Of a stretch of DNA of 64,000 nt, positions 8,680 through 37,275 are shown piece after piece. The notes below the pieces were generated by a model that did not search any database, was not told the origin of the DNA, and worked only from the letters and a program-made list of their open reading frames with translations. This DNA comes from Desulfobulbus sp. (GTDB taxonomy: Bacteria > Desulfobacterota > Desulfobulbia > Desulfobulbales > Desulfobulbaceae), in NCBI GenBank assembly GCA_003604995.1, contig QZJD01000069.1:20302-84301 (forward strand). Direction: 5' to 3'. Made by a program: the position numbers and the translations under genes. The number at the start of each line of letters is the position of its first letter. The first letter of the stretch is position 1.

Positions 8680-8690
8680 GGATGATAGAT

Positions 8691-10331: not shown

Positions 10332-10715
10332 CGACGTCCTTCAACCCCGTCTGTCCCGGCCGAGATCCGGAGAGCAACTCCATCTCCCCGCCCCCCGGCA
10401 TGGATGCCGCTTCTTCCCGGAGCGCCCTGTCATGCTGCATAGCCGGGCCTGCGCGGAACAGATCATCAAACTTCCTGCCCCCATCGCATCCCATTGTTTT
10501 TCCTTTAATAAAATACCAACCGCAGGCCTTTCCGTGCCACAATGTGCCTGCTTCCCCTTGCCATTCCTCAGCTCATTCTTATTGTTTCATGGGTAATGAT
10601 TATCCTTCTCGTTCAAACAGGGGTCGGTCCGCCCCTGTTTTGCAGACGCTGGCGAACAATTCAACGGGAAGGATCAGTCTCATTGAAAATTCAGGACAAT
10701 GCTGCAGGTATGATT

Positions 10716-12296
10716 ATGAAACATTTATTTCTCACCTGGGTCGTGACCGCCTTCGTTCTCTCCACTTTCTCCTGCGCCGCTGCCGATGATCCTCCGAACA
10801 ACCGCCCCTTCCTGGAACCTGTCTACAAACTCCTCCTGACCTCGCACCGCCCCCCGACCGTGCCTCCCGGAGGGTCGCATGCCGACCTGCTTTACAGCGA
10901 ATACCCGCAAAACTGTCTCGGCTGCCACACGGTGCAGGCCAATGAAATGTTCGGCTCAACCCATTATCAATGGCTGGGAAACGCGCCCGATATGGTGAAT
11001 GGCCCTGCAATTCTTCAGGGTAAGCTGACCAATGCCGTCAACAGTTACTGTATCAATATCGAAGGGAATTGGCCGGTATGCGGCTCCTGCCACGCCGGTC
11101 GCGGCAAGCGGCCCGACGATCCGGCGGCCGGCCTGGAGAACATCGACTGCCTGATCTGCCACAGTGAGGAATATGCCGCGGCCAGAATCCGCCTGCCGGA
11201 CGGCTCCCTGGGCGTAGAGAAGCCCCAGGACTCCATGGTCCGGAACATCCAGGCGCCGACCAGGGCCAACTGCTTGAAATGCCACGCCACGGCCGGGGGC
11301 GGCGACGGGGTGAAGCGAGGCGACCTCTCCCTGGCGACCATCGCCAACAGCGACCCCCATTTTGACGTGCACATGAACACTTCCGGCAGCGATCTCGCCT
11401 GCCAGTCCTGTCATGTCTTCATCGGCCACCGGGTCATCGGCAAGGGCTCGGATCTCCGGGCCACGGATGACCCGGGACGGGGTTCCGAGATCCAGTGCGT
11501 CAGCTGTCACGAAGGCAAGGATGGCGCAGGCGGCCATGACGATGCGACCATCGGCAGGCACGTAGCCCGGGTGGCCTGCCAGAGCTGCCACATCCCGACC
11601 TATGCCAAAGTTGCAACGGAAACCCACCGCGACTGGCGCAGCCATGATGACGGCAGTCCGGCCGACGGGGTGAGCGGGCCGGGACATCCTTTCACCCGCA
11701 AGGAAGCCAACCTCGTCCCGGTCTACCGATTCTGGAACCGGCTGAGCGACAATTATCTTCTCGGCGATGATGCCGCCCGGACCTACGATGCGGCAAAAAA
11801 TACCTACCCGACCTCCCGGCCCCTCGGCGATAACCGGGACGGCAAGCTCTATCCCTTCAAGTACAAAACCGCCAGCCAGCCGAAAACCCTCGGCGACGAC
11901 CGGCTGATTGCCCTGGATACCTTTGAATTCCTGAAGGGGACCGGCAATGTCGAGACCGCCATCGAAAAAGGCCTGCAGAACATGGGGTATTCCGCCGCCG
12001 AGCCCTACGAATGGATCGAGACCGATACCTATCAGATGCTCAATCATGGGGTGGCGCCCTCTTCCGCGGCGCTCACCTGCGTGAGCTGTCACGACAATCC
12101 CGCCCGGATGGACCTGCAGGGAGAGCTGGGCTACGGGTTGAAAGGAAGCAGCGGCACGGTCTGCACCCAATGTCATGGCCAGAAGTCAGGCGCCGATTTT
12201 GTGAAAATACATGACAAGCATGTCCAGTCCAAAAGGTATGACTGCTCCTGGTGTCATACTTTTTCAAGGCCGGAACGCGGTTTGACCATGCCGTAG
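10716..12296 (+). CDS. 10-CXXCH cytochrome, octaheme tetrathionate reductase (OTR)-family-like
   Basis: 10 CXXCH; OTR-like NCLGCHTVQ..HYQWLG..YCINIEGNWPVCGSCHAGRG; signal peptide at MKHLFLTWVVTAFVLSTFSCAAA. Confidence 0.75.
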   Translation: MKHLFLTWVVTAFVLSTFSCAAADDPPNNRPFLEPVYKLLLTSHRPPTVPPGGSHADLLYSEYPQNCLGCHTVQANEMFGSTHYQWLGNAPDMVNGPAILQGKLTNAVNSYCINIEGNWPVCGSCHAGRGKRPDDPAAGLENIDCLICHSEEYAAARIRLPDGSLGVEKPQDSMVRNIQAPTRANCLKCHATAGGGDGVKRGDLSLATIANSDPHFDVHMNTSGSDLACQSCHVFIGHRVIGKGSDLRATDDPGRGSEIQCVSCHEGKDGAGGHDDATIGRHVARVACQSCHIPTYAKVATETHRDWRSHDDGSPADGVSGPGHPFTRKEANLVPVYRFWNRLSDNYLLGDDAARTYDAAKNTYPTSRPLGDNRDGKLYPFKYKTASQPKTLGDDRLIALDTFEFLKGTGNVETAIEKGLQNMGYSAAEPYEWIETDTYQMLNHGVAPSSAALTCVSCHDNPARMDLQGELGYGLKGSSGTVCTQCHGQKSGADFVKIHDKHVQSKRYDCSWCHTFSRPERGLTMP

Positions 12297-19280: not shown

Positions 19281-21674
19281 TTAAAAGCGGACTTGCAGGC
19301 CGCCGCCGAATCCGTATTCAGTGTGGTAATTACCGATGAGAGAGATGTTTTTCCTGATAAGATAGGTGAGGGCAATGCCCCCCTCCCAATCCTCATGCGT
19401 ATCGTACCTGACCTCGCCGGCAAGAGTCAGACGGGGAGTCAGGTCCAGGGTTTTTTCCAGGGCGGCTCTCGCCCCTCCGTCGGTGTCGACCCATGCCCTG
19501 GCCTCCAGGTTGAGCGGCAGCAGATAGCGGAAGCCGAATACGCCGCGGGTCTCGTCGATCTCGCCGTCCTCCCCCTCCATATCCAGCCCGCCCAGCAGGG
19601 AGAAAAACCGGTTAACGTACCGGTTATAGGAGACGAGCACTTCCCACTCGACTTCGTCCACCTCCTGCCAGCCGGCTTCCCACTCCGCAGTGAGGATATT
19701 GCGGGTGTTTGCCAGGGAGAACATTCCTTCGGTCATGTTGCTGAGGATGTCGGCCTCGCCCCATAAATACCAGTGATCCGCATAGAGATTGGGACGGATG
19801 GCGGCAAGCGCCGGATCGATGACAAAGTCTTCGTATTCCACCAGGCGCGCCATTCCGCTTTCCATGTGGTAGAGCAGGTGACAGTGAAAAAACCAATCTC
19901 CGACCTCGTCTGCGTCGAATTCAATGACCGTGGTGGCCATGGGCGCAACGTCAACGGTATGTTTGAGCGGGGCGTAATCGCCCTGTTTGTTGACAACCCG
20001 GAAAAAGTGGCCGTGCAGATGCATCGGATGGTGCATCATGGTCCGGTTGATCATGATAAACCGCGTCACTTCGCCCTGCCTGACCAGGATCGAGTCGCTC
20101 TCGGCAAGGGTTTTGTTGTTCAGCGTCCAGACGTAGCGTTCCATATCGCCATCCAGGGTGAGGCGGATTTCCCGGACCGGCCTGGCCGCCGCAAAAGCCG
20201 TGGACTTGAGCGCCTTGAGGTCTCCATAGGGCGTCCCCGGGCGTTCCGGGCCCATGCCGTCTACCGCAAGATTCTTCGCGGATGCGGTATCCGCCCCCAG
20301 AAGACTGAAATCATTCCCGTATTTTTTGCCTGCCCGCAGGTCCTGGTGAGGGGTCATTGCTGAGTGGCTCTCCGTTGCCATACCTGAGGCGGGGGTTTGC
20401 GGGGTGTCCATCCGCATGCCGGAATGAGGGGCCATTGCCGTCCCGCTCATCGGCTGGTGATCCATGTGCTCCATTGTCATCGGGACTGATCCGGCATCAT
20501 GGGTCATGTGCTCCATGTGCTGCATGGCCCCCATGTCCATTTCGCCCATGCCCATCATGCCCGGCCGGTCAAATTCGCCCGCTTGCACATCGCTGTCGGC
20601 CATGCCCATCACCCCTGCCGGGGTGATGGCGAAGATATCCTTCCAACTGAAATGGCCCATACCCTGATACAGGTTCGGCCGGGGTATGGCAGGCGCCGGT
20701 TGGGGACTGCCCGAACCGATCCAGACCGAAGCATATCCGGACCCGTCGTGGGCGGTGGCCCGGAATTCAAAACTGCCGGCCTCTTTGAGCTGGACCAGGA
20801 CATCATATGTCTCTGCCACCCCGATGAGGAACCGGCCGGAGGTGAATGGCTCCACATCCTGCCCGTCCGCGGCAACAATGGCCATGGGGCCGCCGGCAAA
20901 CTCCAGGTGGAAGTAGGTGGTGGCCGACCCGTTAATGATGCGCAGGCGGACGGTCTCACCGGGCCGGGCCGCAAGGTTGGATTCGGTTTTGCCGTTGGCC
21001 AGAAAGCGGTCATAGGCAACGTCCGAGATATCCATCGGCGGCATGCGCTGCAGCTCGCGCTGGAAGTAGCTGCCGAGCATGCCGAGGCGAGCGGCACCCA
21101 GGATGCTCTGGCCGCTGCCCTTCTCAATCGTATACCACTCGCTGCCGCGCTTCAGGGTGCGCAGCACCGAATGGGGATCTTCATCGGTCCAGTCCGAAAG
21201 AAGGACGACACGGTCACGGTCCGCGTGGCCGGCGTGTCCCCGGGGCTGGATAACGATCGCTCCGTATACCCCGCTTTGCTCCTGGAGGGCGCTGTGGGAA
21301 TGATACCAGTAGGTGCCGCTCTGGCGGATCGGAAATTCATAGGTAAAGGTCGCATCCGGTGCTATGGGTGGGAAGCTGATGTAGGGGACGCCGTCCATCC
21401 CCGGCGGGACAAGGAGGCCGTGCCAATGGATCGAGGTATCCGCATCCATCCTGTTGCGGACCTTGATGCGGGCGAGGTCCCCCTCGGTAAAGCGCAGGAC
21501 CGGCCCGGGAATGGCGCTGTTGATGGTCATGGCCTGCACCGGTTTGCCGCTGATAGTGACTTCCTGCCTGGCGATGGTGAGTTCGTATTCGACGGTTTCT
21601 GCCCCGGCCTGTATGCCGTTGCCCAAAACAAAAAGAAGCAGGGCTGCACTTATTCTGGAAATTCCGGTCAACAT
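19281..21674 (-). CDS. CopA-type multicopper oxidase fused to C-terminal CopB-like beta-barrel
   Basis: HWHG, YWYHSH, HHPMHLHG, HCHLLYHMESGM; Met/His-rich insert; C-terminal YLLPLNLEARAWVDTDG..EVRYDTHEDWEGGIALTYLIRK..GGGLQVRF. Start ATG 21674 behind AAAGGAG. Confidence 0.85.
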   Translation of the reverse strand: MLTGISRISAALLLFVLGNGIQAGAETVEYELTIARQEVTISGKPVQAMTINSAIPGPVLRFTEGDLARIKVRNRMDADTSIHWHGLLVPPGMDGVPYISFPPIAPDATFTYEFPIRQSGTYWYHSHSALQEQSGVYGAIVIQPRGHAGHADRDRVVLLSDWTDEDPHSVLRTLKRGSEWYTIEKGSGQSILGAARLGMLGSYFQRELQRMPPMDISDVAYDRFLANGKTESNLAARPGETVRLRIINGSATTYFHLEFAGGPMAIVAADGQDVEPFTSGRFLIGVAETYDVLVQLKEAGSFEFRATAHDGSGYASVWIGSGSPQPAPAIPRPNLYQGMGHFSWKDIFAITPAGVMGMADSDVQAGEFDRPGMMGMGEMDMGAMQHMEHMTHDAGSVPMTMEHMDHQPMSGTAMAPHSGMRMDTPQTPASGMATESHSAMTPHQDLRAGKKYGNDFSLLGADTASAKNLAVDGMGPERPGTPYGDLKALKSTAFAAARPVREIRLTLDGDMERYVWTLNNKTLAESDSILVRQGEVTRFIMINRTMMHHPMHLHGHFFRVVNKQGDYAPLKHTVDVAPMATTVIEFDADEVGDWFFHCHLLYHMESGMARLVEYEDFVIDPALAAIRPNLYADHWYLWGEADILSNMTEGMFSLANTRNILTAEWEAGWQEVDEVEWEVLVSYNRYVNRFFSLLGGLDMEGEDGEIDETRGVFGFRYLLPLNLEARAWVDTDGGARAALEKTLDLTPRLTLAGEVRYDTHEDWEGGIALTYLIRKNISLIGNYHTEYGFGGGLQVRF

Positions 21675-21696
21675 CCTGGCTGCTCCTTTGTCCATT

Positions 21697-24072
21697 TTAC
21701 GTAATGTGTATCCGCCGCAGCCTGAGGGAGTTGCCGACAACCGAAACAGACGAGAGGCTCATCGCCGCCGCCGCGATCATCGGCGAGAGCAGGATCCCCA
21801 GAAACGGATAGAGCACCCCGGCGGCCACCGGGACACCCAGCGAGTTGTAAACAAAGGCGAAAAAAAGGTTCTGCCTGATGTTCGCCATGGTGGCGCGGGA
21901 GAGTTTTCGTGCCCGGACGATGCCGGTGAGGTCGCCTTTGACCAGGGTGACCCCTGCCGATTCCATGGCCACATCGGTGCCGGTGCCCATGGCGATGCCC
22001 ACATGGGCCTGGGCCAGGGCAGGCGCATCGTTGATCCCGTCTCCGGCCATGGCAACCATTTTCCCCTCATCCTGCAACCGCTTGACCTCCGCCGCCTTTT
22101 CCTCGGGCAGCACCTCGGCCACCACTCCATCAATGCCCAGTTTTGCAGCCACGGCCTCGGCGGTAGCCCGGTTGTCACCGGTGAGCATCACCACCCGCAA
22201 CCCCTCATCGTGCAGCGCACGGATGGCCTGCGGCGTGGTTTCCTTGATCGGGTCGGAGACCGCCAGCAGTCCGGCAAGTTTGCCGGCGGCGGCAACGAAC
22301 ATGACCGTCTGGGCCTCCTTGCGCATATCTTCAGCGCGTTTCGCCAGTTCCGCGATTTCGACGCCGAAATCCTCCATCAGCCTGAGGTTGCCGAGCAGTA
22401 CCCTGCTCCCCTCAACCGTTCCGGAAACCCCTTTGCCGGTATGCGACGCAAAGTCGGCCGCTTCCAGGGGATTGACACCACGTTCCCCGGCGCCGGCCAC
22501 GATGGCTGCCGCCAGGGGGTGTTCGCTTGCCTTCTCCAGGCTGGCCGCAAACTTCAGGAGTGTTTCCTCGGCCATGCCCTCCGCTGTCACCACCCCGGTC
22601 AGTTTCGGCTTGCCAAGGGTCAGGGTGCCGGTCTTGTCCACCACCAGGGTATCGATCCGGCGCAGGGTCTCGATGGCCTCGGCGTTCTTGAACAGTACCC
22701 CCATGGTGGCGCCCTTGCCGGTGGCCACCATGATGGACATGGGGGTGGCGAGCCCCAGGGCGCACGGACAGGCAATGATCAGCACCGATACCGCGACGAT
22801 CAGGGCATACGCCAGGCGCGGATCAGGGCCGAAATAATACCAGATGATAAAGGCGGCAAGGGCGACCGAAATAACCACCGGGACAAACCAGCCGGAAACG
22901 GTATCGGCCAGCTTCTGGATCGGCGCCCGTGATCGTTGCGCCTCCGCCACCATTTTGACAATCTGCGCGAGCAGGGTCTCGCTGCCCACCTTTTCGGCAC
23001 GCATGGTGAGCGCGCCGGTGGTGTTGACCGTGGCGCCGATCACCTTGTCGCCCGGCTGTTTTTTGACCGGGATCGGCTCGCCGGAAATCATCGACTCGTC
23101 CACCGAGCTTGCGCCGTCGACCACCGTGCCGTCCACCGGCACCTTCTCGCCCGGCCTGATCCTGAGCACATCCCCTTTCTGGACATGCTCCAGGGGGATA
23201 TCGGTCTCGCTGCCGTCGTCATTGATCTTCCGCGCCGTCTTCGGCGCCAGCCCCAGGAGTGCCCTGATGGCGGCGCCGGTCTGGCCGCGGGCTTTCAGCT
23301 CCATGACCTGGCCCAGCAGAATCAAGGTGACGATCACCGCCGCCGCCTCGAAGTACACGCCAACGGCGCCGTCATGGCCGCGCATTTCGTCAGGAAAGAC
23401 CGCCGGGAACAGAACGGCGATCACGCTGTAGACATACGCCACCGATACGCCCAGGCCGATCAGGGTGAACATGTTGAGACTTTTGTTGAGGAGCGATTGC
23501 ACAGCCCGGACATGAAACACCCAGCCGGCCCAGAGCACCACCGGCGTGGCCAGGACCAGCTCCAGCAGGGCCAGAGCGCGGGGCGAGGCCAGGTTTTCCA
23601 GGAGACGGCCGCCCGGCAGCATATCGCGCATGGCAATGATGACCAGGGGGGCGCTGAGGACCGCGCTCAGAATGAACCGGCGGCGCATGACCGCATATTC
23701 CGGGCTTTCCTCAGAGCCGTCAGCGTCGGCCAGCAGCGGCTCGAGGGCCATGCCGCATTTTGGACAGCTGCCCGGCCCATCCCGAATTATTTCCGGATGC
23801 ATGGGACAGGTGTACCGCATGCCCGCGGCCGCTGGAGACTCCGGCTCGGATGCGGCCCGGTCCGCCGCCGGCAAAAGATAGGATTGGGGATGCGCCTGGA
23901 ATTTGCCCAGGCAGTGCTCGCCGCAGAAATAATAGGCTTGGCCGCCGTGCTCATGGCGGATGAATTGGCCGGGATCGTCGGTGGACATGCCGCAGACCGG
24001 ATCGGTGACTTTTCCCGGCAGGCCCTGATGCTCTTCACCCGCCAAATGGTGTTTTTGCGTCGTGCCCGGCAT
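21697..24072 (-). CDS. copA: copper-translocating P-type ATPase with N-terminal YHS and heavy-metal-binding domains
   Basis: [17 protein letters not shown] motif, [41 protein letters not shown]. Confidence 0.93.
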
Positions 24073-24170: not shown

Positions 24171-25706
24171 TCAAGGACGCGGCGCCTTGTTCATAATCGC
24201 CGGCAGGAACAGGTTCCAGGGGAAAGGATCAGGGCCGGCCAGCTTGCAGACAAAGATGTCCTCAAACCCGGCGCTGGTCAGGTTGAGGGCTCCGGCGCCC
24301 GGATCGAAATCGGCTGCTCCCTGGAAAACACCGGTGGCATGGACGGTGCCGTCCGCGGATGCGGCAAGGTCAAAGCCGTAATCGGCCGATGGCCCGCCCA
24401 TGGCCCCGGCCCAGACCAGGTGGCCGCTCGCGGTCAGCTTGCTGATAAAAATATCCTCGGCACCGGCACTGACCAGATTGAAGGTCCCGGCGCCCGGGTC
24501 AAAATCGGCGGTGCCGTTGAACCCGCCGGTGGTGAAGACGTTATTCGCACCATCCACGGCAATGCCGTAGCCCACGTCGGCCGCGAGCCCCCCCATGGCC
24601 CGGGCCCAGAGAAAATTGCCGTCGCCGTCCAGCTTGCTGACGAAAATATCGGAAGCACTGAGGGGATCGGTGACCAGATTGACTATCCCGGCGCCCGGGT
24701 CAAAATCAGCGGTGCCGATGAACCAGCCCGTGGATAAAACATTGCCCATGGAGTCGACGGCGACGGCCTGGCCGATATCCTCGGAAATTCCGCCCATGGC
24801 CCTGGACCAGAGAAAATTGCCGCTGCTGTCCAGTTTGCTGACATAGATATCCCTGCTGCCGCCGGCGCTGGTCAGCTGCTCGGCGCCAAAGTCCACCGTA
24901 CCCTGGAACCAGCCGGTGAGATACACGTTGCCGGTCGAATAGAGCGAAATGCCCAGCCCCACGTCAGCTGAAGTGCCCCCGATGGTTTTGGCCCAAACAA
25001 AGGTGCCGTTATTGTCCAGCTTGCTGATAAAGATATCTTCGACATTAACACTGGCACTGCTCAGGTTGGCTGTTCCCTGCCCAGGATCAAAATCCACCGT
25101 GTTCTTGAAATAACCCGTGGTATAGATATTTCCGCCACCATCAACGAGAATGCCGTAGCCGTAATCATCCGCCGTGCCGCCCATGGTCCAGGCCCCGACA
25201 AAATTCCCGTTGCCGTCCAGCTTGCTGATGAAGATATCGGAACTGCCTTCGCTGGTACGAGGTTCGCTGCCCGCGCCCGGATCAAAATCAACGGTGCCGA
25301 CGAAATAGCCTGTCGTATAGACGTTACCCAGGGCATCCGTAACGATCCCCCATCCCTCATCCGAAGAGGAACCTCCGATCGCCCGGGCCCAGACCAGGCC
25401 GCCACTGCTGTCCAGCTTGCTGATAAAAACATCCTTGCTGTTTGCAACGCTGGACAACTCGACCGTTCCGGGGCCCGGATCAAAATCGGCCGTCCCCCGG
25501 AAGTAGCCGGTAGTGTACACATTGCCGGCCGCATCGACATGGATGTCGTAACCCTCATCGTTAAAAGTTGATCCAAACCCCTTGGCCCAGAGCAGATCAC
25601 CAGCCGCGGCATGAACCGGAGCGGCCGGCAGGCCACAAAAAAATAACGCAGCCAGCACGTAACCGGCCGGATTCAGGAGACAAAGAAGCAGACGTAGTGT
25701 TTTCAT
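24171..25706 (-). CDS. secreted SBBP-like beta-propeller repeat protein
   Basis: Seven or more repeats of DIFISKLD..GNFVWARAMGG..DxGxGIAVDGxGNVYTTGYFxGTADFDPGAG; signal peptide; C-terminus PFPWNLFLPAIMNKAPRP. Confidence 0.85.
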   Translation of the reverse strand: MKTLRLLLCLLNPAGYVLAALFFCGLPAAPVHAAAGDLLWAKGFGSTFNDEGYDIHVDAAGNVYTTGYFRGTADFDPGPGTVELSSVANSKDVFISKLDSSGGLVWARAIGGSSSDEGWGIVTDALGNVYTTGYFVGTVDFDPGAGSEPRTSEGSSDIFISKLDGNGNFVGAWTMGGTADDYGYGILVDGGGNIYTTGYFKNTVDFDPGQGTANLSSASVNVEDIFISKLDNNGTFVWAKTIGGTSADVGLGISLYSTGNVYLTGWFQGTVDFGAEQLTSAGGSRDIYVSKLDSSGNFLWSRAMGGISEDIGQAVAVDSMGNVLSTGWFIGTADFDPGAGIVNLVTDPLSASDIFVSKLDGDGNFLWARAMGGLAADVGYGIAVDGANNVFTTGGFNGTADFDPGAGTFNLVSAGAEDIFISKLTASGHLVWAGAMGGPSADYGFDLAASADGTVHATGVFQGAADFDPGAGALNLTSAGFEDIFVCKLAGPDPFPWNLFLPAIMNKAPRP

Positions 25707-25794: not shown

Positions 25795-27267
25795 CTACTC
25801 CCGCATATTTTGCCCGGCAATGGGCTGCACGAAGAGCTGCCACGGGAAGGGGCTCAACCGCCGATAGGCCGCCCCGACATCGAGCAGGCCGTAGCCGTAG
25901 GTATGATCCGGGCCCGGATCGCCCAGGTCACGGGCGGTAAGGCGCAGCAGGTCTTCAAGTTCGGCCACGCTGAGCTGCGGGGCCATACCGAGCAGAAGGG
26001 CCATGGCCCCGGCGACATGGGGCGCGGCAAAAGAGGTGCCGGAGACAAAAGCGTATGAATAAGGAACGGTGCCCCCCCCGGTCAGATCCGTTGTCCGGAC
26101 GTTGACCCCCGGGGCAACGATGCTCGGAAAGATCGAACCGTCGCAGGCGGACGGACCGCGGCTGCTGTCTTCGGCGACCAGCAGGGTGTCGGCAACGCTG
26201 CCCACCGAATAGCTCTCCGGATAGTTGGCCGGACTCAAGCTCGTCGCCGGCGCCGACCCGGAATTGCCGGCGGCAACGACCACCGCCACCTCAGCGGCCT
26301 TCAGGGCCTGAATATCCGCCTGATACACCGTATCGCACACATTAACCTCATCAACCAGCCCCCAGGAAATGTTCACCACGTCCGGCAGGTCGTCGGTACC
26401 CGGATTGCCGTCCGGATCGAGCAGCCACTGGAACCCCAGATGGATGGCGCTCTCCGTTGCCTTGTTCGCATCGTTGAAGACCTTGACCGCGATCCATTGG
26501 GCGCCCGGCGCCACCCCGATAGCGGTCCCGCCCGCATCGCCCCCGACCATGATCCCCATGGTCCGAGTGCCGTGCCCGTTCAGATCGGAGGGTGTTGGAT
26601 GCTCGCCGTTGGGGTCGTACCAGCTGTTGGCGCCGCCGCGCCATCTGGGCCCGATATCCGGGTGCAGGGCATCGACCCCGGTGTCCATGCCGGCCACCAC
26701 CACCCCGCTCCCGGTATGCCCGCGGCTCCAGAGAACCGGCGCCCTGATCGCGCTCAGGTTCCATTCAGGCGCGGCCGCCAAGGCCAGGTCGGGCTCAGGC
26801 AGGGCCAGGGTTTTGTCGAGGCGAACGCTCATCACTTCCGGGCGCGCGGCCAGCTCACCGACCTGATCGGCCCGGAGGGTCACGGCCATGCCGTTGAAAA
26901 TCCAGAAGGGAGTGAGGCGCAGGGCCTTTTGCTTCCTAAGAAATTCGTGAAGAGGCCGCTGGCTCTTCTCCGCCCTGGCGCGCAGGGCACGACCGATTTT
27001 TGCCCTGCGTACCTCCTTGCCCAGGCCGCGGAAGCGGTGGAAGTCCTCCTGATCGGTCAGGGTGACGATAACCGCAATCTCCTGTTCAGGCGGCAGGCTC
27101 AGGAGCCGGGCCTGCAGGCCGGGCTGGATGGTACCGGCCTGCACAGGGGATACAACGGCGAGAATGGCCACCAGCGAGAGGACAATGAACCAAGGGTGTT
27201 TCGAGATCGCAAGCGACCGGACCGCCGTGGCCGGAAATGGAACTGATTGACGCCGGGAGAAAACCAC
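25795..27267 (-). CDS. S8 subtilisin-like serine protease, secreted
   Basis: VVAGMDTGVDALHPDI, NGHGTRTMGIM, GTSFAAPHVAGAMAL catalytic motifs; C-terminus SPFPWQLFVQPIAGQNMRE. Start (GTG 27267) uncertain. Confidence 0.85.
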   Translation of the reverse strand: MVFSRRQSVPFPATAVRSLAISKHPWFIVLSLVAILAVVSPVQAGTIQPGLQARLLSLPPEQEIAVIVTLTDQEDFHRFRGLGKEVRRAKIGRALRARAEKSQRPLHEFLRKQKALRLTPFWIFNGMAVTLRADQVGELAARPEVMSVRLDKTLALPEPDLALAAAPEWNLSAIRAPVLWSRGHTGSGVVVAGMDTGVDALHPDIGPRWRGGANSWYDPNGEHPTPSDLNGHGTRTMGIMVGGDAGGTAIGVAPGAQWIAVKVFNDANKATESAIHLGFQWLLDPDGNPGTDDLPDVVNISWGLVDEVNVCDTVYQADIQALKAAEVAVVVAAGNSGSAPATSLSPANYPESYSVGSVADTLLVAEDSSRGPSACDGSIFPSIVAPGVNVRTTDLTGGGTVPYSYAFVSGTSFAAPHVAGAMALLLGMAPQLSVAELEDLLRLTARDLGDPGPDHTYGYGLLDVGAAYRRLSPFPWQLFVQPIAGQNMRE

Positions 27268-27277
27268 GCGGGAGGGG

Positions 27278-27754
27278 CTACTCGACCACCAGGTGTTCGG
27301 CCCGAAAATCGCCGATAACCACCGTTGCCCTGCTCCCTGGCTTGACCAGCCCGGTGGTATTGCCGAAAAACATCCAGTAGATGCTGCCTTCCTTGATGTC
27401 GCCTGTTGTGCGCAACGGGCCGATCTTAGCCGTGGTCGGGACCGAAAGCACTTTTCCGCTCGCCTCATCGATCAGATATGCCTTGTTGCGCCGGTCGAAC
27501 AGGGGGCGCGCCTTTTCGGCATTCAGGACGCGGTAGCGGAAATCGATCATGTGGCCGGCGGCGGTCATCCGCAGGCTGGTGATCTCGATACCCCAGCGTT
27601 CCCGGGTATCGGCTTCCCCGGCCCGGCCGCCCTGATCAATCGCGGCACAGGCGCTCAGGAGGAGGAGCAGCCCCCAGCACGCCCATGCCGCAATGAATCG
27701 CGGGAAAGCAGATCGCCCTGCAACAGCCTTTCTGCGCAACGGTTTCCTCTTCAC
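27278..27754 (-). CDS. predicted lipoprotein, unknown function
   Basis: Lipobox-like LLLSACAA; 158 aa; lies in the same-strand run. Confidence 0.6.
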   Translation of the reverse strand: MKRKPLRRKAVAGRSAFPRFIAAWACWGLLLLLSACAAIDQGGRAGEADTRERWGIEITSLRMTAAGHMIDFRYRVLNAEKARPLFDRRNKAYLIDEASGKVLSVPTTAKIGPLRTTGDIKEGSIYWMFFGNTTGLVKPGSRATVVIGDFRAEHLVVE

Positions 27755-27772: not shown

Positions 27773-28753
27773 TTACCGGCCCGCACCGGTGATCGCCGGC
27801 ATGAACAGGATCCACGGGAACGGCTGGACGTTCAGGTAGACCAGCATCCCGCCGCCGGGCGCACCGTTGCTGCTCAAGGACAGGCTGCGGTCGTACAGGG
27901 CGTGGGTCCCGGACTGTTCCGGCCGCCAGATGGCGTCCAGGGTCTTGCCCGCGGCGAGCAGGACGGAATACTGCTCCCGGGCATAGGGATAAGGATTGCC
28001 GTCCTCGGCGATTATCTTCATGTACGGGCCCTGCATGACCGGGACATGGGCCATCAAACCGGCATTGACGAACCGGAGGAGCAGGTTCTTGTTGACCTGG
28101 GCGTTTGCGGAGACCACCGGCACCGCCTGTCCCGCGGCAAAGGCATCCCCGTTGATCAGGAAATATTTGGGTTTGTAGGTCAGAGGCGTTGCCGCCGCGG
28201 CCGTCGCGTGCAGGGCCGGATCAATCTCGCTGTAGAGGAGAAGGGCCTCATCGGTGGCCTGGTAATACGTGCCGACGGTCAGGGCGCCGTAAAGCCCCAT
28301 ATGGACCTGCTTGGCCGGATTGCTGCCGCTCTGATACAAAAAGGTGCCGGCCTTGATATTGTTCCAGGTATAGCTTGCCGTGCCGCCGGCCGGGGCCTCG
28401 TGGGTAAAGGCCGTGACCCTGTTTCCCTGGACCACCGGGGTCAAGGTCGCGTTCTGACCGGGAATGACCAGGGAAACCGGCTCGCTCAGGCAATTACGCA
28501 GGTTGATGGTCAGCGTCGCGCCGGGCGAACCGACCTGCAACGGGCCGACATCCCAGGCCACCGGCCCAGCCGGACAGGAGCCCGGATCGGCGATGAAACC
28601 CCACATGGGTATCGGCGTCGCCGAGTCCGGTGGAGTCCACTCGGCCTCTACCGCCGCCAGATCGATGGCTGAGACTGGCGAGGCCACGGAGAAAAACGCT
28701 GCCAGGAGGATAACCGGCACCCTCAGGCTTTTGCTTATGTTTGTCATGTTCAT
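27773..28753 (-). CDS. cupredoxin/MCO-like secreted protein with degenerate copper motifs
   Basis: Cupredoxin-like TYTWNNIKAGTFLYQSGSNPAKQVHMGLYGALTV; lacks HxH motifs; C-terminus PFPWILFMPAITGAGR. Confidence 0.65.
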   Translation of the reverse strand: MNMTNISKSLRVPVILLAAFFSVASPVSAIDLAAVEAEWTPPDSATPIPMWGFIADPGSCPAGPVAWDVGPLQVGSPGATLTINLRNCLSEPVSLVIPGQNATLTPVVQGNRVTAFTHEAPAGGTASYTWNNIKAGTFLYQSGSNPAKQVHMGLYGALTVGTYYQATDEALLLYSEIDPALHATAAAATPLTYKPKYFLINGDAFAAGQAVPVVSANAQVNKNLLLRFVNAGLMAHVPVMQGPYMKIIAEDGNPYPYAREQYSVLLAAGKTLDAIWRPEQSGTHALYDRSLSLSSNGAPGGGMLVYLNVQPFPWILFMPAITGAGR

Positions 28754-28771
28754 ACCTCTCCCCTTTCTCCG

Positions 28772-30115
28772 TTAATGGATCATGACACCCGGTGCTTCAA
28801 TGATCAGCATGGTCATCATGCCGCCGGGGAAAATATCATAATTGACCATTTCCTTTTCGGTGTGCGAGTGCCACATGTACGTATAGCCGCCGTTGGGATT
28901 CATCCCGCCCTCTCCCGGCGGCAGGGATTGCACCAGTCCGAGGAACGGACTGCCGCTGTAAAACCCGCCGAAGGTCAGCTCCAGGCTGCCGGGCAGGGTC
29001 ACCGGAAAGGGTTTGTAATGATCTGGGCAGTACTCGTGGGTCATGTCATCAAAATCATCGTTATCCATGTCCATGCACTCGTGGACATATTCCGGGCCCT
29101 CCGCGGGAGAACCGTAAATATCCCAGCCGAGCCCCTGGCCGGTCCACCCGAAGATGGCGTCCACCGTGCTGCCGGGCTGCGACTGGATGGTGAACAGCTC
29201 GTGGCTGAGATCAGGACCGGCGCCGGGGGTGCTTTCCAGGAGCCGTCCGTCGCGGGCAATGACCCTGGCATGGTTGCCGTGAAAATGGAAAGGATGCATA
29301 TCGCGGCCGCCGCCGATGACCCGCATCAGGAGCCTGTCTCCCGGATTCATCATGGGCATGCAGTTGTACGGCTGATTGGGCAGCCAGGGCACCCCGTTGT
29401 CGGCCATGGTGTCAGGCGCCGCCCTGCCGTTGATGAACCAGAGGACCGGAAAATAGTTGGCAAGGTAGCCGGTGGCCGCCACCGCATCCGGACCGAAGGT
29501 TTCCACCACCTGGTGGATCCGCGGATCCATCTCGCTGAGGAGAAACAGGGTTTCCCTGTCAAACTGCGTATCCGGATGGTTATAGGCGTAATTGGCGCCG
29601 CTGGCGGGTCGGACGATCATCGCGCCGATGAGGCCCATTTCCACCTGGAGCGCCGAATCGGTGCCGCTGTAATAAGTATAGGTCCCCGGTTTGGCGGCCG
29701 TGAACTGGTAGGTCACCGTCCCGCCCGGAGCGGCCTCATTGGCCAGGATCCCCGGAATACCGGGGTCGGTGGGCGAGACCACCACGTGCTGGCCCGGAAA
29801 AACAATAGACACGTTGGGCGCCGGGCCGGCCCCGGCCACGGTCAGGCTGTTGGTCAGTTTGACCTGCACCTGATCGCCTTCGTTGACAATGATCGTCGGA
29901 CCCGGATACTGGGCCAGCCCGGCACCGTTGGCATAGCCCCAGATCAGATAACTGCCGCTGTCCGGGGTCGAGATATGGCCGGTGGTAGCGGTCAGGTTGA
30001 ACGAGGTGCCGGTAATCCCCTGGATCATCGCCCCTGCATTGACGGCCAGCAGGACCATGAACACCCCGCCAAGCACGGTCACCTGCAACGCCCTTCTGAT
30101 TACTCTTGTCTGCAT
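28772..30115 (-). CDS. multicopper oxidase-domain protein (T2/T3-type motifs only)
   Basis: MHPFHFHG and YMWHSHTEKEM motifs in C-terminal cupredoxin; N-terminal cupredoxin degenerate. Confidence 0.8.
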   Translation of the reverse strand: MQTRVIRRALQVTVLGGVFMVLLAVNAGAMIQGITGTSFNLTATTGHISTPDSGSYLIWGYANGAGLAQYPGPTIIVNEGDQVQVKLTNSLTVAGAGPAPNVSIVFPGQHVVVSPTDPGIPGILANEAAPGGTVTYQFTAAKPGTYTYYSGTDSALQVEMGLIGAMIVRPASGANYAYNHPDTQFDRETLFLLSEMDPRIHQVVETFGPDAVAATGYLANYFPVLWFINGRAAPDTMADNGVPWLPNQPYNCMPMMNPGDRLLMRVIGGGRDMHPFHFHGNHARVIARDGRLLESTPGAGPDLSHELFTIQSQPGSTVDAIFGWTGQGLGWDIYGSPAEGPEYVHECMDMDNDDFDDMTHEYCPDHYKPFPVTLPGSLELTFGGFYSGSPFLGLVQSLPPGEGGMNPNGGYTYMWHSHTEKEMVNYDIFPGGMMTMLIIEAPGVMIH

Positions 30116-30130
30116 CTTGCTCTCCCTTAT

Positions 30131-31366
30131 TCAGTTGACCCTGATTTCCGTCATCATCCCGCCGAAGGGCTCCGTATTGTTGCTCAGATAATTCAGGTTG
30201 GTGGTATACAGAAAATACTTCGTGCCCGCTGCCGCATCGACGGGAATTTCAATAATCGCATCCACCGACTCGCCGCCGCCCAAGGTGACCGAATTGGTTT
30301 TGTAATACAGATCCTTGCCATCCGGTCCCCGGAGCAGCTTGGCATTCATGCCCACCACGGTCATGTCCACGCCCAGGGTGGCCAGGGTATAGAACCGGGT
30401 CACATTCAGGTTGGAGATACGAAGCAGCACCCGTTCGCCGGGCGCCGCTTCAATGAGGGAACTTTCTTTCTGAGAGGCCTTGCCACCGTTCACGTTGCCG
30501 GCCGGCGGCGGCAGAGCCGCCGGGTTGACCGTGTCCGGATAGCCCCGACCGTTCAACATGGGATAGTCGTCCTCCATCAGGGCGAAGGGCAGCGGCTGCA
30601 CCGTAAGGCTGGCATTGTGAAAAGCGGAATCCATGGAGCCGATCTGAATCGGATAGTCTTTGTCATAGCCGGTGGAGCCGTCGCCGTCGTTGTAGGCGAA
30701 CTTCGTATAGTCGCGGCCGCCGTAGGTGTAGGTGGTTCCGTCCTGGACCGGCCGCACATAGAGGTTGCCGAGCATGCCCATCTGCATGTGCTCGGTGGCC
30801 TCCACATGACAATGATACATATAGGTGCCCGGATCATTGATCTTGTAGTAATAGGTCAGGCTGGACCCCATGTTGATCGAAATCGAGGCGTCCGGCACCC
30901 CGTCAAAGATCGGCGCCGCCTCGGGAAAGCCGTGGTAGTGCACGGAATGGGGGTCAAAGAGATCCGGCCGCATCATCATCCCGACGTTGGTCAGGGTCAG
31001 ATAGAATTCGTCCCCCTCGTCGAGCATGATGGGCGGCGCGGGAAAACTGGCGCCCAGCATGCCCTCCATCATGACGTCATCGCCGGTATCCGGCGGCACC
31101 GGCTTGGTCACCAGGCCGGTGAGGTCGGAAAAACCGAAAATATACTGGGTTGCGCCATCCGCCATGGTGATGAACCCGTCTCCGGCCCCCAGATGCATGC
31201 ATTTGGTGTTCGGCGGCTGGACCTCGCCAGCGTCCCAGGTCGCGGAGCCATTGGTGTCGCCCGGGCATTGCACGTTAATTGCGGCATACCCGGGGAGCGG
31301 CGCCAGCATGGCGAGGAAACCACCCAGAGTTGCCCCCATCAATGAATATCTGCGCTTAGTGGTCAT
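30131..31366 (-). CDS. multicopper oxidase-domain protein (T1-type motifs)
   Basis: DPHSVHYHG and YMYHCHVEATEHMQMGM motifs; signal peptide. Confidence 0.8.
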   Translation of the reverse strand: MTTKRRYSLMGATLGGFLAMLAPLPGYAAINVQCPGDTNGSATWDAGEVQPPNTKCMHLGAGDGFITMADGATQYIFGFSDLTGLVTKPVPPDTGDDVMMEGMLGASFPAPPIMLDEGDEFYLTLTNVGMMMRPDLFDPHSVHYHGFPEAAPIFDGVPDASISINMGSSLTYYYKINDPGTYMYHCHVEATEHMQMGMLGNLYVRPVQDGTTYTYGGRDYTKFAYNDGDGSTGYDKDYPIQIGSMDSAFHNASLTVQPLPFALMEDDYPMLNGRGYPDTVNPAALPPPAGNVNGGKASQKESSLIEAAPGERVLLRISNLNVTRFYTLATLGVDMTVVGMNAKLLRGPDGKDLYYKTNSVTLGGGESVDAIIEIPVDAAAGTKYFLYTTNLNYLSNNTEPFGGMMTEIRVN

Positions 31367-34300
31367 ATATCACTCCTCTTCTCCTCATCCCGTCCTTTTT
31401 GGAACTTGGGCATAATGATAAAGCAGAACACCAAGGCCAGGCCGATCAGAATAAGGCCGGCCAGCGAATAGCCGAGCGCGCTACCGCCCGATCCCTTCTG
31501 TCCCCGCTTGCGGTTTTCCAGGGCGTTTTCTTCGGATTCTTCCGAATCAGTCAGGGACAGGGGAGCCCGTTCCGAACGGACCGGAGAAAGCGATGCATCG
31601 CCCGGGCCCGGATCGGGCGAGGACTGCGGGACCATCTGCTCCGCCGGCAACGGCAGCGGCACGATAGCCGCCCGATCCATCCCTTCAGCCGCCGGCGACG
31701 GAAGTACCGCCCCGGCCGGGGCCGGCCCGCGCCCTGTTTCCCTGCCGGCTCCAGCGGGAGCAGCGGAAGGCTTCGGCCCGGAGACAACCCCCTCCGCCAG
31801 CCCGGTAAGGTTTTCCTTCACCGTGGCGAGCACGGCATCGATTCCTCCGGCGATCACTTCCGCCGGGACCGTGCCCGGGCCTTGCGGAGTCGAGCCGGCC
31901 GAAGCGGTATTGGTCATCGGTCCTGCGTCGGTCAGCAGGCCGGTGGTTCCCTTGGCCCCATCGGAGGTCAGCAGAGCGGGCGCGGCCATAATGACCGCGC
32001 CCTGGACTTCGTCGGCCCCGATATCCGAGGGATTCGCGTCATAGGGCCGGGGCCCGCCGTCGAAATCGACGGTGAGTTCCGGAAAGGTGGCCAGCAGAGC
32101 ATCCGTCCCCGTATTCCATGCCTGGGCCTGACCAATATGGTAATTGCCGGCCGAAGCGGACAAGGGGGTGAAACGGATGTTGATGGCGTTGCCGCCTTCA
32201 TCCACGATGGTGGTGGATTCGACCTCGTTGAAATAAGGACTCAGGAATCCCGGGGAGACCGAACTGTTGGTCGCATCCGCACCACCCAGGGTATAATCGA
32301 AGCCGGTGGCCGGGTTGGTAAGGCTGGTCAGGATGCAGTAATCGGGATTCAGATGGGGATCCGTCGAAGCGACCGAGCCCATGACGTGGATGTCCCAGTA
32401 CTGGCCGGCCGGGTTGGGCGCCAGCCCGCCGGCGCCTGCGTTCAGCGTGGCGTCGTTGTACCAGGAACGGTTCTGCCAGACGATATTGTTCACCAGCAGC
32501 GGGTCGGAATAGCCCGGCTGGGCTAGCCCGAACAGCCCTTGCAGGATGGCGCTGTGCACTCCGGCGGCAATGCCCGCCGGCTGCGGCGTGGAATTGGCCT
32601 GTCCGGCCTGGAAGGCCAGAGCACTGGTCGCGGTGCTGTCATTGCGGGCTATGGTGTTGTTGACAATATTGGCCCTGGCGACATCCTGGAGCGAGATCCC
32701 TGCCCCGGAATTGCCGGCCACATTGTTGACGATCATGTTGTTGAAAATGTTCAGCCGGTACCAGGAGGTATCGTCAGCGGGCGAGTCGGCCACATCCTGG
32801 CCGTTCACCGCAAATGCGCGGATGCCGCCGCCGTTGCCGGAACCGGTCATGTTGCCCTGGATCAGGTTCCCGTCGATGGTCACCGATCCGGAACCAGTTC
32901 CGCCGGCCGTGTCGCCGCCGATGTATATACCCGCACCGTCGCCGGCCAGCGCGAGGAGCGCCCCGTAAAAGATCTCGTTGAACAGGATCCGGTTTTTGCG
33001 GATGACATTGTTGCCGAGACTCAGGCCGCGGTGCTGGATGCCGCCGCCGTTATAGCGACCGAAGTTACCGAAGATGATGTTCTCCTCGACCAGATAACCG
33101 TCGGACCCTTCATTGAGGGCCATACCGCCGCCACCCTGGATACCGCCGTTGCGGTGGATCTTGTTGTGCCGGATGATGATCCCGTCGTTCCCCGGATCAA
33201 AGCCGAGTCCCGCCAGGCCAAGTTCCGGCGCGCCGATGACGATGCCGCCGGCATAGGTGCCCTGGTTGCCGGTGATGTTGTTGTTGCTGATCACCAGACC
33301 CAGGGCGCCGCTGAAGGCAAAGATCGCGCCGCCGGCCTTGGAGCCGGAGATGGTGAAGCCGTCAATGGCCGCCTGGCCTGGCACGGTGAAGGGATTGCCC
33401 GGATTGAAGTCCTGGCCGTTGGGGAAGGGGGTCTCGCCCACCACGAAAATGCCGGGCGCCTCGCCAGCCGAGAACGGGGTCCTGAGGTTATATTCAGTGA
33501 TGATCTGGCCGGACGGATCAAGGGTTTCCACCCGGTCGTGCCAGAGGTCCAGACGATCCAGGGGGACCGGATTGCCGTTGATGAACGTGCCGACGCCGGC
33601 GCCCTGCAGACGGACCGGCTTGTCCATGATCACGTTCTCGTTGAAGCCGCCGGTGCCTACCAGGATGATGTCGCCCGCCGCTGCCGCGTCAACAGCGGCC
33701 TGAATGGAGCCGCCGACCGCAACGGTGTGCACGGTGAGACCGCTGCAATCCAGTATGTTCAGGGTCACGCCGATCTCAGAGGTCAGGCCGTTGTCCCTGG
33801 TCACCAGGACCCGGCCCGTGGCGCTCCCATCAGGCACGTTGACCTGGATCTGGGTATTGGTCCAGGAAGCCACGGGCAGATCAACCCCGTCCAGGGTGAC
33901 CCTGCCGGTGCCTTGAACAGCGCCGAAACCGACATCCCGGGTGATGGTGGGCTGGGTGCTCAGATTCGGATACAGCGGGTTGCGGATGATTATCGTCCCG
34001 CCCGGAGGGGTATTGATGGTGAGCACCGCGGGCAGAACGTTCGTATCGGTGCAGACCAGGGGACCTGCCTGCGAATCGGTTGCCGTGGCATAAATAACCG
34101 GGGTGCCGTTGGCCGGGCCGGTGTCCAGCCGCACGTCGTTGGCGACAAAGGCGGCCACCGGCACGATGGGCGTATCCAGGTAGCTGGTCGCCCCCGGCAT
34201 ATAATTGAAGGTCCAGGACGTCACCGCGTAGTCGGGATCATGGAACGAATCGGGAGTTACGCCGTCGGCCTGGTAAGGGTCGTTCAGGATCAGGGTGATC

Positions 34301-37194
34301 ATGTTCGGCGATATCCCGGTGGGCGACGGGACGTTGACCGTGTAGGTTGAAGGCAGCATGGTGTTGTAGCTGCCGAACTCGTCGGTGTAGATCCGGGTCA
34401 GCTCGTTCCCCTTCCAGTCCCTGAAGGAGACGGGTATCCAGGGCGCCGCCAGCTTTTCGCCGTACACCGGACTGGCCTGGTTGAACTCGGCGGCCAGGTC
34501 GTTGTTGACAAAGCCGACCGCCCGGGCCGCCTTGGGCACCTGGGTAAAGAGGAAGAAATCCGCCGCGGCGTTCTGGCCGGCGCTCAGGATAACCTGTTTG
34601 CGATCGCACAGGGGACGGGTCTGGCCGGCAAACGGCGCCGCGGTAACCCCGTCAAACGACAGGAAAGGCGGCACCAGGTGCGGGTCGCCCACGCAGACCG
34701 GCGGCAGCAGCAGCGGACTCGGGATGTAGGTGTCGCCGAAGTCCACGTTCTTGTCCTCCTCCTTGAGCAGTGTATAGCCCGGAGGCGGGACCGATTCGAC
34801 AATGTAGTAGCCGCTGGGCAGGCCCGCCGTCTCCGGACTGCCCGAAAAGATCCCGCCGGGGTGGTAGGAGTCGAAGGCATACCCGCCGTCAAAGACGCCG
34901 GGGCGGACCTGATTCCAGGTGCCGAAGTTGTCGGCGCACTCGTTGATCGCCCCGAGGCCGGGCAGGACCGGCAGGTCCTGGATACAGCCGCTGGGCTTGT
35001 TGTCGTCCCAGCTGTCCGTGGTGGTGATCTGGATGGCGTCGCCCGGATCAAAGGTTCCGGACAGGTTGTGATCCACATCCTCCGGCCCCTTGATCCCGGT
35101 ATATTCGGGATTCGGAGTGACCCCGTCGTCAAGGAACTGGTACATGGGCGCCCACTGGAACGGATAATTGTCCACATCCGCCGGATTCACGCCATCGACA
35201 TCATCGAGGTCGTCAATGATCCCGTCGCTGCCGGGCAGGCCGGTGGCGTTGACCACCATGTCCGCGTAGAGATTGACCTGCACCCTGGGGATGCCGGGCT
35301 CCCAGCCATCGCCCACCGCGTAGCGCGGATCATTCTCGGCGCGGGTCACCGCGTAAAAGATGATGCCGGAAATGCCGCCGTTTTCGCCCGGTCCGTAGCT
35401 GCTCTTGCCCCATTCGATCAGGTTGGTCTGGCCGAGGAAGAGGTGCATGGCCTGGGTGAGAACCGGGCCGGTCTCGGTGCGGTAATCCAGGGTGCCGTAC
35501 TCGTTAAAGGGATCGGCCGGATCCTGGGGTTGCGGATTCTTGTTGCCGTTGGCCGGCCAGTCGGGTCCCGGAATGGGGCCGCCGTAATCCACCGCCGTGG
35601 TCATGCCGGTGGCCTTGAAGCGGGCGAAGTCGACCTCCACCACCAGCCACTTGAAGAAGGGGAAGACCTCGTCAAACGGCACAAAGCCCTCCGTATCCGT
35701 GGGAAACGCCTGGTAGATGGTCCCGTCCCGGAAGCGGAGATTGACGTTCTGCTCCGCGATGCCCGGTTCACCCGGATCCCGGAAGCCGTCCTCGTCCGCA
35801 TCGTAGAACACCACATTTTCCAGGGAACCGAACCAGCGGAAGGTGAGGACGTCGCCCAGATCGACGGCTTCGCCCGTGCCGCCGGCGCCCGGGGGAACGG
35901 TCACGGTGTGAAAACCGAAAAGGGTATCCAGGTAGGTGTCCCAGGTCACCAGCTGATAGGTGCCGGGCGGGACGTTGGCAATGGTGAACGAGCCGTCGGC
36001 GTTGCAGCGCGCCGCATACTTGCCGGCCACGCCGCCCCCGTCTCCCGGCTGGACCAGCGGATCATTGAGACCGACCCAGCCGCTGGGGATGGTGATCCCC
36101 GGAAAATAGCCCTGGAGCATGGGCGGCCGGGAGAAATGGTTCGCCCGGAGGGTGCCGGTGATGGTCCCGGTCCCGGTGGGCGGGGTCTGATTCCACTCCA
36201 GGGTGGTGAAGGTCTGGCCCTTGAAAGTGGAAGTGGCCGGGCTTTCCTTGACGAATCCGTAAAAGACGTGGTTGAAGCCCGTGCCGAAACCTTCCACAAA
36301 GCGGCTGGGCTCGTTGGCCTTGACCCAGGCATCCACGGTGGGGGTCCCCTCGATGGTGGAGGTCAGGGACCAGTTCATCGCCGCGCCGTCGTCGTCAAAG
36401 CCGGGCGGCACGACCCGGACCCCGTACTTGCCCGGGACCAGATACTTGATCATCGCCTCGCCGACCCGAAGGTTGTAGGGATTTTCCATGCCGCCCGCGT
36501 CGAACTGCTCCTGGGTCAGGGTGGTGATGACCCCGCTGCCGGTCATGGTCACGATCGGGTTGCCGTCGCCGTCAAGAACCGCCTGGCCGGTGATCGGATC
36601 GAACTGATACTGGGTGCCCAGCGGATTGCCGAAGGCATCCTGCATGACCTGACCGGCGGCGTCTGAGATCAGAATCGTCGCGCCGCCGAGTCCCTGTTCC
36701 TGCGGATCAGGGACATTGTTGATCGGGTTGTGATCGACAAAGGCATAGAGGGAGATCTGCGCCGTGGGCAGGGGCAGCGGATTCACCGTGACGGTGACGC
36801 TGCCCGCCCCCGGCTCCACCACTGCGCCGCTGATGGAGTAGCCGTCGGCAGGCAGCACGGAGACGAAATAGCGCTTGGCCGGATCCAGCGGGCTGCCGTT
36901 GGCATCCACGGTAATATCAGCGCTGTTGGTGCCCGTCCCTTCCGCCACCACCGGGGCATGGCTGTTGTGGATGTCGGTGCCGATGCTGACCCGGACCGGC
37001 ACCCCGGGCACGGTGACGTTGGTGTTGTCCTCCTCCAGCAGCCAGCGGAAGTCGCCCACCGTCCCGGCATCGGAGCCCACCACGTTAACGACGAATGCCC
37101 TGGCCTGTCCGGCAAACAGCATGCCCACGGCCAGTACGATACAAAGAATGGCCCTGGATCTGTTTTGCCTGTCCGTCAGTTGCTCTTTCTTCAT
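31363..37194 (-). CDS. giant secreted/surface protein: SdrD-like B repeats, right-handed beta-helix region, C-terminal TM anchor
   Basis: About 1944 aa; SdrD-like YYIVESVPPPGYTLLKEEDKNVDFGDTY; IPT/TIG-like; parallel beta-helix (GSIQAAVDAAAAGDIILVGTGGFNENV, IISNNNITGN..); Pro/Ala-rich stalk and TM GLILIGLALVFCFIIMPKF plus charged tail; start ATG 37194 after GGAGGAG. Confidence 0.85.
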   Translation of the reverse strand: MKKEQLTDRQNRSRAILCIVLAVGMLFAGQARAFVVNVVGSDAGTVGDFRWLLEEDNTNVTVPGVPVRVSIGTDIHNSHAPVVAEGTGTNSADITVDANGSPLDPAKRYFVSVLPADGYSISGAVVEPGAGSVTVTVNPLPLPTAQISLYAFVDHNPINNVPDPQEQGLGGATILISDAAGQVMQDAFGNPLGTQYQFDPITGQAVLDGDGNPIVTMTGSGVITTLTQEQFDAGGMENPYNLRVGEAMIKYLVPGKYGVRVVPPGFDDDGAAMNWSLTSTIEGTPTVDAWVKANEPSRFVEGFGTGFNHVFYGFVKESPATSTFKGQTFTTLEWNQTPPTGTGTITGTLRANHFSRPPMLQGYFPGITIPSGWVGLNDPLVQPGDGGGVAGKYAARCNADGSFTIANVPPGTYQLVTWDTYLDTLFGFHTVTVPPGAGGTGEAVDLGDVLTFRWFGSLENVVFYDADEDGFRDPGEPGIAEQNVNLRFRDGTIYQAFPTDTEGFVPFDEVFPFFKWLVVEVDFARFKATGMTTAVDYGGPIPGPDWPANGNKNPQPQDPADPFNEYGTLDYRTETGPVLTQAMHLFLGQTNLIEWGKSSYGPGENGGISGIIFYAVTRAENDPRYAVGDGWEPGIPRVQVNLYADMVVNATGLPGSDGIIDDLDDVDGVNPADVDNYPFQWAPMYQFLDDGVTPNPEYTGIKGPEDVDHNLSGTFDPGDAIQITTTDSWDDNKPSGCIQDLPVLPGLGAINECADNFGTWNQVRPGVFDGGYAFDSYHPGGIFSGSPETAGLPSGYYIVESVPPPGYTLLKEEDKNVDFGDTYIPSPLLLPPVCVGDPHLVPPFLSFDGVTAAPFAGQTRPLCDRKQVILSAGQNAAADFFLFTQVPKAARAVGFVNNDLAAEFNQASPVYGEKLAAPWIPVSFRDWKGNELTRIYTDEFGSYNTMLPSTYTVNVPSPTGISPNMITLILNDPYQADGVTPDSFHDPDYAVTSWTFNYMPGATSYLDTPIVPVAAFVANDVRLDTGPANGTPVIYATATDSQAGPLVCTDTNVLPAVLTINTPPGGTIIIRNPLYPNLSTQPTITRDVGFGAVQGTGRVTLDGVDLPVASWTNTQIQVNVPDGSATGRVLVTRDNGLTSEIGVTLNILDCSGLTVHTVAVGGSIQAAVDAAAAGDIILVGTGGFNENVIMDKPVRLQGAGVGTFINGNPVPLDRLDLWHDRVETLDPSGQIITEYNLRTPFSAGEAPGIFVVGETPFPNGQDFNPGNPFTVPGQAAIDGFTISGSKAGGAIFAFSGALGLVISNNNITGNQGTYAGGIVIGAPELGLAGLGFDPGNDGIIIRHNKIHRNGGIQGGGGMALNEGSDGYLVEENIIFGNFGRYNGGGIQHRGLSLGNNVIRKNRILFNEIFYGALLALAGDGAGIYIGGDTAGGTGSGSVTIDGNLIQGNMTGSGNGGGIRAFAVNGQDVADSPADDTSWYRLNIFNNMIVNNVAGNSGAGISLQDVARANIVNNTIARNDSTATSALAFQAGQANSTPQPAGIAAGVHSAILQGLFGLAQPGYSDPLLVNNIVWQNRSWYNDATLNAGAGGLAPNPAGQYWDIHVMGSVASTDPHLNPDYCILTSLTNPATGFDYTLGGADATNSSVSPGFLSPYFNEVESTTIVDEGGNAINIRFTPLSASAGNYHIGQAQAWNTGTDALLATFPELTVDFDGGPRPYDANPSDIGADEVQGAVIMAAPALLTSDGAKGTTGLLTDAGPMTNTASAGSTPQGPGTVPAEVIAGGIDAVLATVKENLTGLAEGVVSGPKPSAAPAGAGRETGRGPAPAGAVLPSPAAEGMDRAAIVPLPLPAEQMVPQSSPDPGPGDASLSPVRSERAPLSLTDSEESEENALENRKRGQKGSGGSALGYSLAGLILIGLALVFCFIIMPKFQKGRDEEKRSDI

Positions 37195-37275
37195 AACTCT
37201 CCTCCACATATCCTTGTATTCCGAGAATACACGTAACAACGCGATGAGATCGCCGGGCAGAACGTCTGCCGGGAG

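Follow-up and report, generated by a model that had tools for sequence, protein, structure and literature searches.

Two-domain multicopper oxidases (MCOs) are trimers in which the ligands of the trinuclear cluster come from two neighbouring protomers, and in those of type C the T1 copper lies in the N-terminal domain (PMC13151041). A type C enzyme has one gene, three identical subunits and three active sites. Ceruloplasmin and the MnxG and MofA-OmpB oxidases are single chains of six cupredoxin domains, of which most lack a complete copper site, with T1 copper in even-numbered domains and one trinuclear cluster. The partners found in the Mnx complex, MnxE/F, are not known to be MCO chains. In bacterial six-domain MCOs T1 is reported to be in domain 2 and the cluster to lie between domains 2 and 3 (PMC3600357).

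A third described system is a gene cluster of Sideroxydans lithotrophicus ES-1, for which the accessible parts of two reports provide the following description. Three tandem extracellular MCO genes were reported by He et al. 2017 (PMC5566968), and in a 2025 study the levels of the Slit_1816-1818 proteins on magnetite exceeded those on Fe(II)-citrate (PMC12016527). Two of these proteins have canonical MCO motifs, whereas the third is larger and motif-free, with adhesin- and polysaccharide-lyase-like domains, and SCO1/SenC and cytochrome genes adjoin the three (PMC12016527). The authors named Paraburkholderia as carrying similar clusters (PMC5566968, PMC12016527). In those parts the Slit_1812-1818 cluster appears as three uncharacterised cupredoxins, two of them with 'typical' motifs, and there is no mention of half a site per motif-bearing protein (PMC5566968, PMC12016527).

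The locus analysed here lies in a stretch of 64,000 nucleotides of Desulfobulbus sp. DNA (the window), in which an earlier note had read three adjacent genes, here called A, B and C, as encoding a heteromeric MCO.

Copper ligands of the three proteins

The coordinates that the earlier note gave for the three genes were correct, and we add that all three are on the minus strand (Table 1). Transcription runs in the order BIG, A, B, C; the 3' end of BIG shares 4 bases with the start of A, and gaps of 15 and 18 bases separate A from B and B from C, respectively. A, B and C are all in one reading frame, and read-through of the DNA crosses two stop codons. BIG contains SdrD-like, polysaccharide-lyase fn3-like (polysaccharide-lyase-4) and right-handed beta-helix parts and a C-terminal hydrophobic segment. 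Relatives of the small exported protein encoded downstream of C were found near the trio in 44 of the 80 related loci described below. No Rfam elements were found in window positions 24000-40000.

Table 1. Positions in the window of the genes and motifs discussed; ligand roles are predicted
Feature	Coordinates	Strand	Description
BIG	31363..37239	-	1958 aa, exported; proposed surface scaffold
Subunit A	30131..31366	-	411 aa; two-domain cupredoxin with apparent secretion signal
A motif HSVHYHG	30929..30949	-	T1 His140; cluster His143, His145
A motif HCHVEATEHMQMGM	30773..30814	-	cluster His185, His187; T1 Cys186, His193, Met198
Subunit B	28772..30115	-	447 aa; two-domain cupredoxin with apparent secretion signal
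B motif HPFHFHG	29276..29296	-	cluster His277, His279; His274 also invariant
B motif WHSHTEKE	28850..28873	-	cluster His416, His418; Glu420 invariant
Subunit C	27773..28753	-	326 aa; two-domain cupredoxin with apparent secretion signal, no copper ligands
Small exported protein	27278..27754	-	158 aa, lipoprotein-like signal; downstream of C
Subtilase	25795..27468	-	
SBBP beta-propeller protein	24171..25706	-	
YHS copper P-type ATPase	21697..24072		
CopA-type MCO	19281..21740	-	
Multihaem c-type cytochromes	5905..12296	+	

The Pfam MCO domains PF07732/PF07731/PF00394 were found above cut-off in A, B and C. In protein A, domain 1 contains a full T1 set and the only two HxH motifs of the chain, and domain 2 is degenerate; B likewise has exactly two HxH motifs, both in domain 2, with no T1 site and a degenerate domain 1; and C has zero HxH motifs. 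The four HxH motifs and the T1 Cys/His/His/Met are reached by A and B jointly and by no single chain. These findings bear out what the earlier note had claimed from the motifs, namely a T1 site and two HxH in A, HPFHFHG and WHSH in the second domain of a B with a degenerate first domain, and one complete MCO copper set among the three proteins. Its account of C was right as to the lack of HxH and wrong in taking C for a single cupredoxin, as C is a two-domain chain like A and B. The alternative that it had named, independent homotrimers with complete sites, was not borne out: in the known geometry, neither an A-only nor a B-only assembly would contain the four HxH.

The copper-ligand columns were compared in 78-81 homologues, from alignments comprising 80 A, 81 B and 79 C sequences, and each column was invariant, save for gaps and one substitution of the T1 Met (M198L), which sits in a sequence broken by a frameshift. 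The stray extra HxH seen in a few homologues were all outside the ligand columns. At the positions of the missing motifs, domain 1 of B has the conserved non-ligand sequences VSIVFPGQ and SGT..LQ.EMGL.GA, and domain 1 of C has VSIVIPGQ and SGT..VQ..MGLYG; this replacement by conserved sequence indicates that the loss of the motifs is old and fixed and not a sequencing error. Judged from the alignments, the ligand pattern is well beyond chance.

Copper nitrite reductases have a type 2 copper on three His at a subunit interface and no HCH. A site of that kind was ruled out for the trio, as A has an HCH and B two HxH, which is the trinuclear ligand set. In Thalassotalea sp. ND16A (L094:5073-6382) gene A is in two frames, with an apparent frameshift at the T1 motif that may reflect error or decay.

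Distribution, gene order and fusions

Homologues of B came from the genomes of the order and from 85,462 species genomes that were scanned, the latter giving 156 relatives, from which 80 loci were kept. Among 243 genomes of the order A was present in 16, B in 17 and C in 16, with all three in 15; the two genomes without a full trio have genes cut at contig ends. Conservation of the gene trio had been named in the earlier note as a check, and the genes are indeed kept together, none of the 243 genomes having A, B or C alone. The titles of the 80 loci name Desulfobacterota, Beta- and Gammaproteobacteria, Nitrospirae, Acidobacteria, Myxococcota, Bdellovibrionales, Planctomycetes and Hydrogenedentes, about nine phyla overall. 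The order A-B-C with an adjacent BIG was found at every one of these loci not cut by a contig end, the nearest (L050) having a B 81% identical to that in the window. Distances among A, among B and among C sequences are correlated (Mantel r 0.72-0.76), as a unit inherited together would show; linkage and common descent predict such a correlation too.

BIG is fused in front of A at four loci (L074, L087, L095, L099) and behind C at seven (L094, L096, L101, L102, L109, L114, L122), and a C-BIG fusion is also present in Cupriavidus metallidurans CH34 and Paraburkholderia; single-chain fusions of A to B were found at none of the 80 loci. The BIG-A and C-BIG fusions suggest that BIG, A and C are members of one complex. 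Genes assigned by eye from sequence as SCO1-like and MofC-like lie near 17-18 of the 80 loci, and Pfam confirmed a cytochrome c plus a periplasmic-binding protein at the Paraburkholderia locus.

These arrangements resemble the Slit_1812-1818 cluster as its reports describe it. Both have three tandem cupredoxin/MCO genes, the motif-free third protein of Sideroxydans resembles the C-BIG fusions, and its SCO1/SenC and cytochrome neighbours recur at several of our loci; the same A, B, C(-BIG) organisation is seen in the Paraburkholderia and Cupriavidus loci. From the likeness to A, B and C-BIG, the SdrD-like and polysaccharide-lyase parts of BIG, the SCO1-like neighbours and the Paraburkholderia copy, the cluster would be one already known, that of the Slit_1816-1818 type, an identity drawn from the published description and from Paraburkholderia. 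The three-gene cluster itself thus appears to be known; what would be new is the split of the active site between A and B.

At four loci (L059, L060, L063, L085) genes that are type II secretion-like by sequence lie close to the trio. Geobacter OmpB has been linked to an atypical type II system.

Relation to type C enzymes and structure models

Comparison of single-domain profiles gave two homologous sets, one comprising A1/B1/C1 and the other A2/B2/C2, in which B and C were closest. The best solved-structure match was 3g5w for A and C and 2zwn for B, both of which we take to be type C two-domain MCOs. This kinship and the two cupredoxin domains per chain suggest that A, B and C derive as paralogues from a single two-domain MCO chain of type C, with which the trio shares a T1 site in domain 1 (in A only) and the T1 loop HCHVxxxEH. 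In type C enzymes the homotrimer has its full ligand set in one product, with HxH pairs in both domains of one chain, whereas here the pairs are split between A1 and B2, and three genes with at most one functional domain each would make one predicted active site. Because no single chain has all four HxH at ligand positions, we file the trio as a probable derivative of type C and not a member.

For structure prediction by AlphaFold, A, B and C were entered as one read-through chain, with the signal peptides acting as linkers. A mixed A/B/C alignment had misplaced paralogues, and the three-chain alignment was rebuilt mostly from natural in-frame read-through stretches, its paired rows coming from such stretches in other genomes (A-B, B-C and one A-B-C). 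The resulting three-chain model had a pTM of 0.85 and a mean pLDDT of 82; confidence was low chiefly at the linkers and in a few loops.

The earlier note had likened the trio to a six-domain MnxG/OmpB-type oxidase broken into pieces. There are indeed six cupredoxin domains in total, and in Foldseek comparisons with the PDB these align one by one, in order, with those of ceruloplasmin and MnxG; moreover, SCO1/SenC-like and MofC-like genes lie near some copies of the trio, as is the case for mofA/ompB (PMC5566968). However, T1 is in a first-type domain, domain 1 of A, and not in domain 2 of a single chain as in the bacterial six-domain MCOs (PMC3600357), the nearest relatives of known structure are two-domain enzymes of type C, and the three-chain model did not superimpose as a whole on ceruloplasmin or MnxG (TM about 0.2, 9bxa included; 0.27-0.29 for a model of A and B on folds of this type). 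The low whole-model TM indicates that the ring order of the trio is not that of ceruloplasmin and MnxG. A single MnxG/MofA/OmpB-type chain split into three genes is thus unsupported, and we regard it as extremely improbable.

The three-domain laccase of Thermus aligned with the three-chain model at TM 0.69-0.73 (normalised to the laccase) over 771 and 754 columns, and with the A-B model at TM 0.63 over 712 columns. Most other laccases aligned with the A-B model at TM 0.38-0.51 over 555-655 columns, which fits A1-A2-B1, whereas the span of the Thermus laccase on the same model is best explained by A1-A2-B2. By this inference B2 would sit on A1 as laccase domain 3 does on domain 1, which is the geometry of the trinuclear cluster; the ring order proposed below rests on these alignment spans and TM-scores.

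The A-B model, built without C, had a pTM of only 0.57, and parts of A domain 2 lost confidence at a similar depth of the A alignment, although B was covered less deeply in the A-B alignment than in the three-chain alignment, which confounds the drop from 0.85. This result bears on whether A and B are the active pair, as A-B dimers or larger rings, with C an accessory or chaperone outside the ring. The ligands are on A and B only, and conservation is lowest in C (a mean column identity of 42%, compared with 54-55% for A and B), which often has additional C-terminal domains. In contrast, C is retained as strictly as A and B and still has the same two-domain cupredoxin fold as they do, and the model is much less confident without it; we consider an active pair without C unlikely. 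It is also conceivable that the three proteins act as separate copper-binding cupredoxins, A as a T1 electron carrier and B holding copper of its own, with no shared cluster, and serve as a surface copper store or relay. A blue T1 copper may form on A alone, and the assembly is itself deduced from sequences and models. Against this, the HCH and HxH pairs are split exactly complementarily and are invariant across phyla, the genes keep their order and co-occur, and the joint model is confident, so that we find such singly acting proteins very unlikely.

Proposed assembly, function and neighbouring genes

The heteromeric MCO proposed in the earlier note is well supported by the complementary invariant ligands, strict co-occurrence, kept gene order, operon spacing, the fusions to a common partner, BIG, and a three-chain model that is confident, and less so without C. 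We consider it likely that the trio makes one copper enzyme, an A-B-C heterotrimer with a single active site comprising T1 in A and a trinuclear cluster between A1 and B2. Its ancestor would have been a type C chain forming a homotrimer with a trinuclear cluster at each of three subunit interfaces; duplication of the homotrimer gene and specialisation, each copy losing different sites, would give the trio as seen, with A keeping domain 1, B keeping domain 2 and C keeping neither.

We infer the ring order, copper occupancy, oxidase activity and location of A-B-C as follows. The ring would assemble outside the cytoplasm. Its one complete active site would lie where domain 2 of B contacts domain 1 of A, and copper-free contacts between A domain 2 and C domain 1 and between C domain 2 and B domain 1 would close the ring. 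Electrons from the substrate would pass to the T1 copper of A and on, via the His-Cys-His link, to the cluster that A shares with B, where O2 would be reduced to water. BIG would display the enzyme on the cell surface. The surface location, BIG and the ES-1 data favour, tentatively, a metal or mineral oxidase, and we guess at a reduced metal, possibly one bound in a mineral, as the substrate; other possible functions are copper detoxification and phenol oxidation.

To our knowledge, an oxygen-reducing centre built from two proteins with half the ligands each is undescribed for this enzyme class, and our search of the open literature for heteromeric MCOs found nothing relevant. We lean towards regarding the trio as the first heteromeric MCO, a ring of three paralogues with one cluster made by two genes, tethered to a giant surface protein, present in many phyla including metal- and sulfur-oxidising lineages, and maybe an extracellular mineral-metal oxidase. 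In the literature and in the output of annotation tools alike, the genes appear as encoding two or three separate MCO or cupredoxin proteins; should the site be split, an assay of any one protein alone would give a false negative. If the proposal is true, a homotrimeric metalloenzyme would have become an obligate heterotrimer through complementary active-site loss, by an evolutionary route parallel to that behind single-chain ceruloplasmin, and the cluster induced during magnetite oxidation gains a concrete, testable meaning.

Protein C, the subtilase and the SBBP beta-propeller protein have a common C-terminal tail, PFPWxLF, extended to PFPWxLFxPAI in C and the beta-propeller protein. The whole genome has four occurrences of the corresponding DNA pattern, of which these genes account for three, and similar tails are present at the ends of C and of downstream proteins in relatives; the tail is possibly a sorting or processing signal. 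Elsewhere in the window is a complete three-domain CopA-type MCO with a Met/His-rich insert, whose gene adjoins that for the YHS copper P-type ATPase. Its C-terminal extension of ~185 aa has no Pfam match and by eye resembles a CopB-type outer-membrane barrel; the protein is possibly a CopA-CopB fusion. The large multihaem c-type cytochromes form a series on the plus strand, and two of them are weakly similar to MtrC/MtrF domains.
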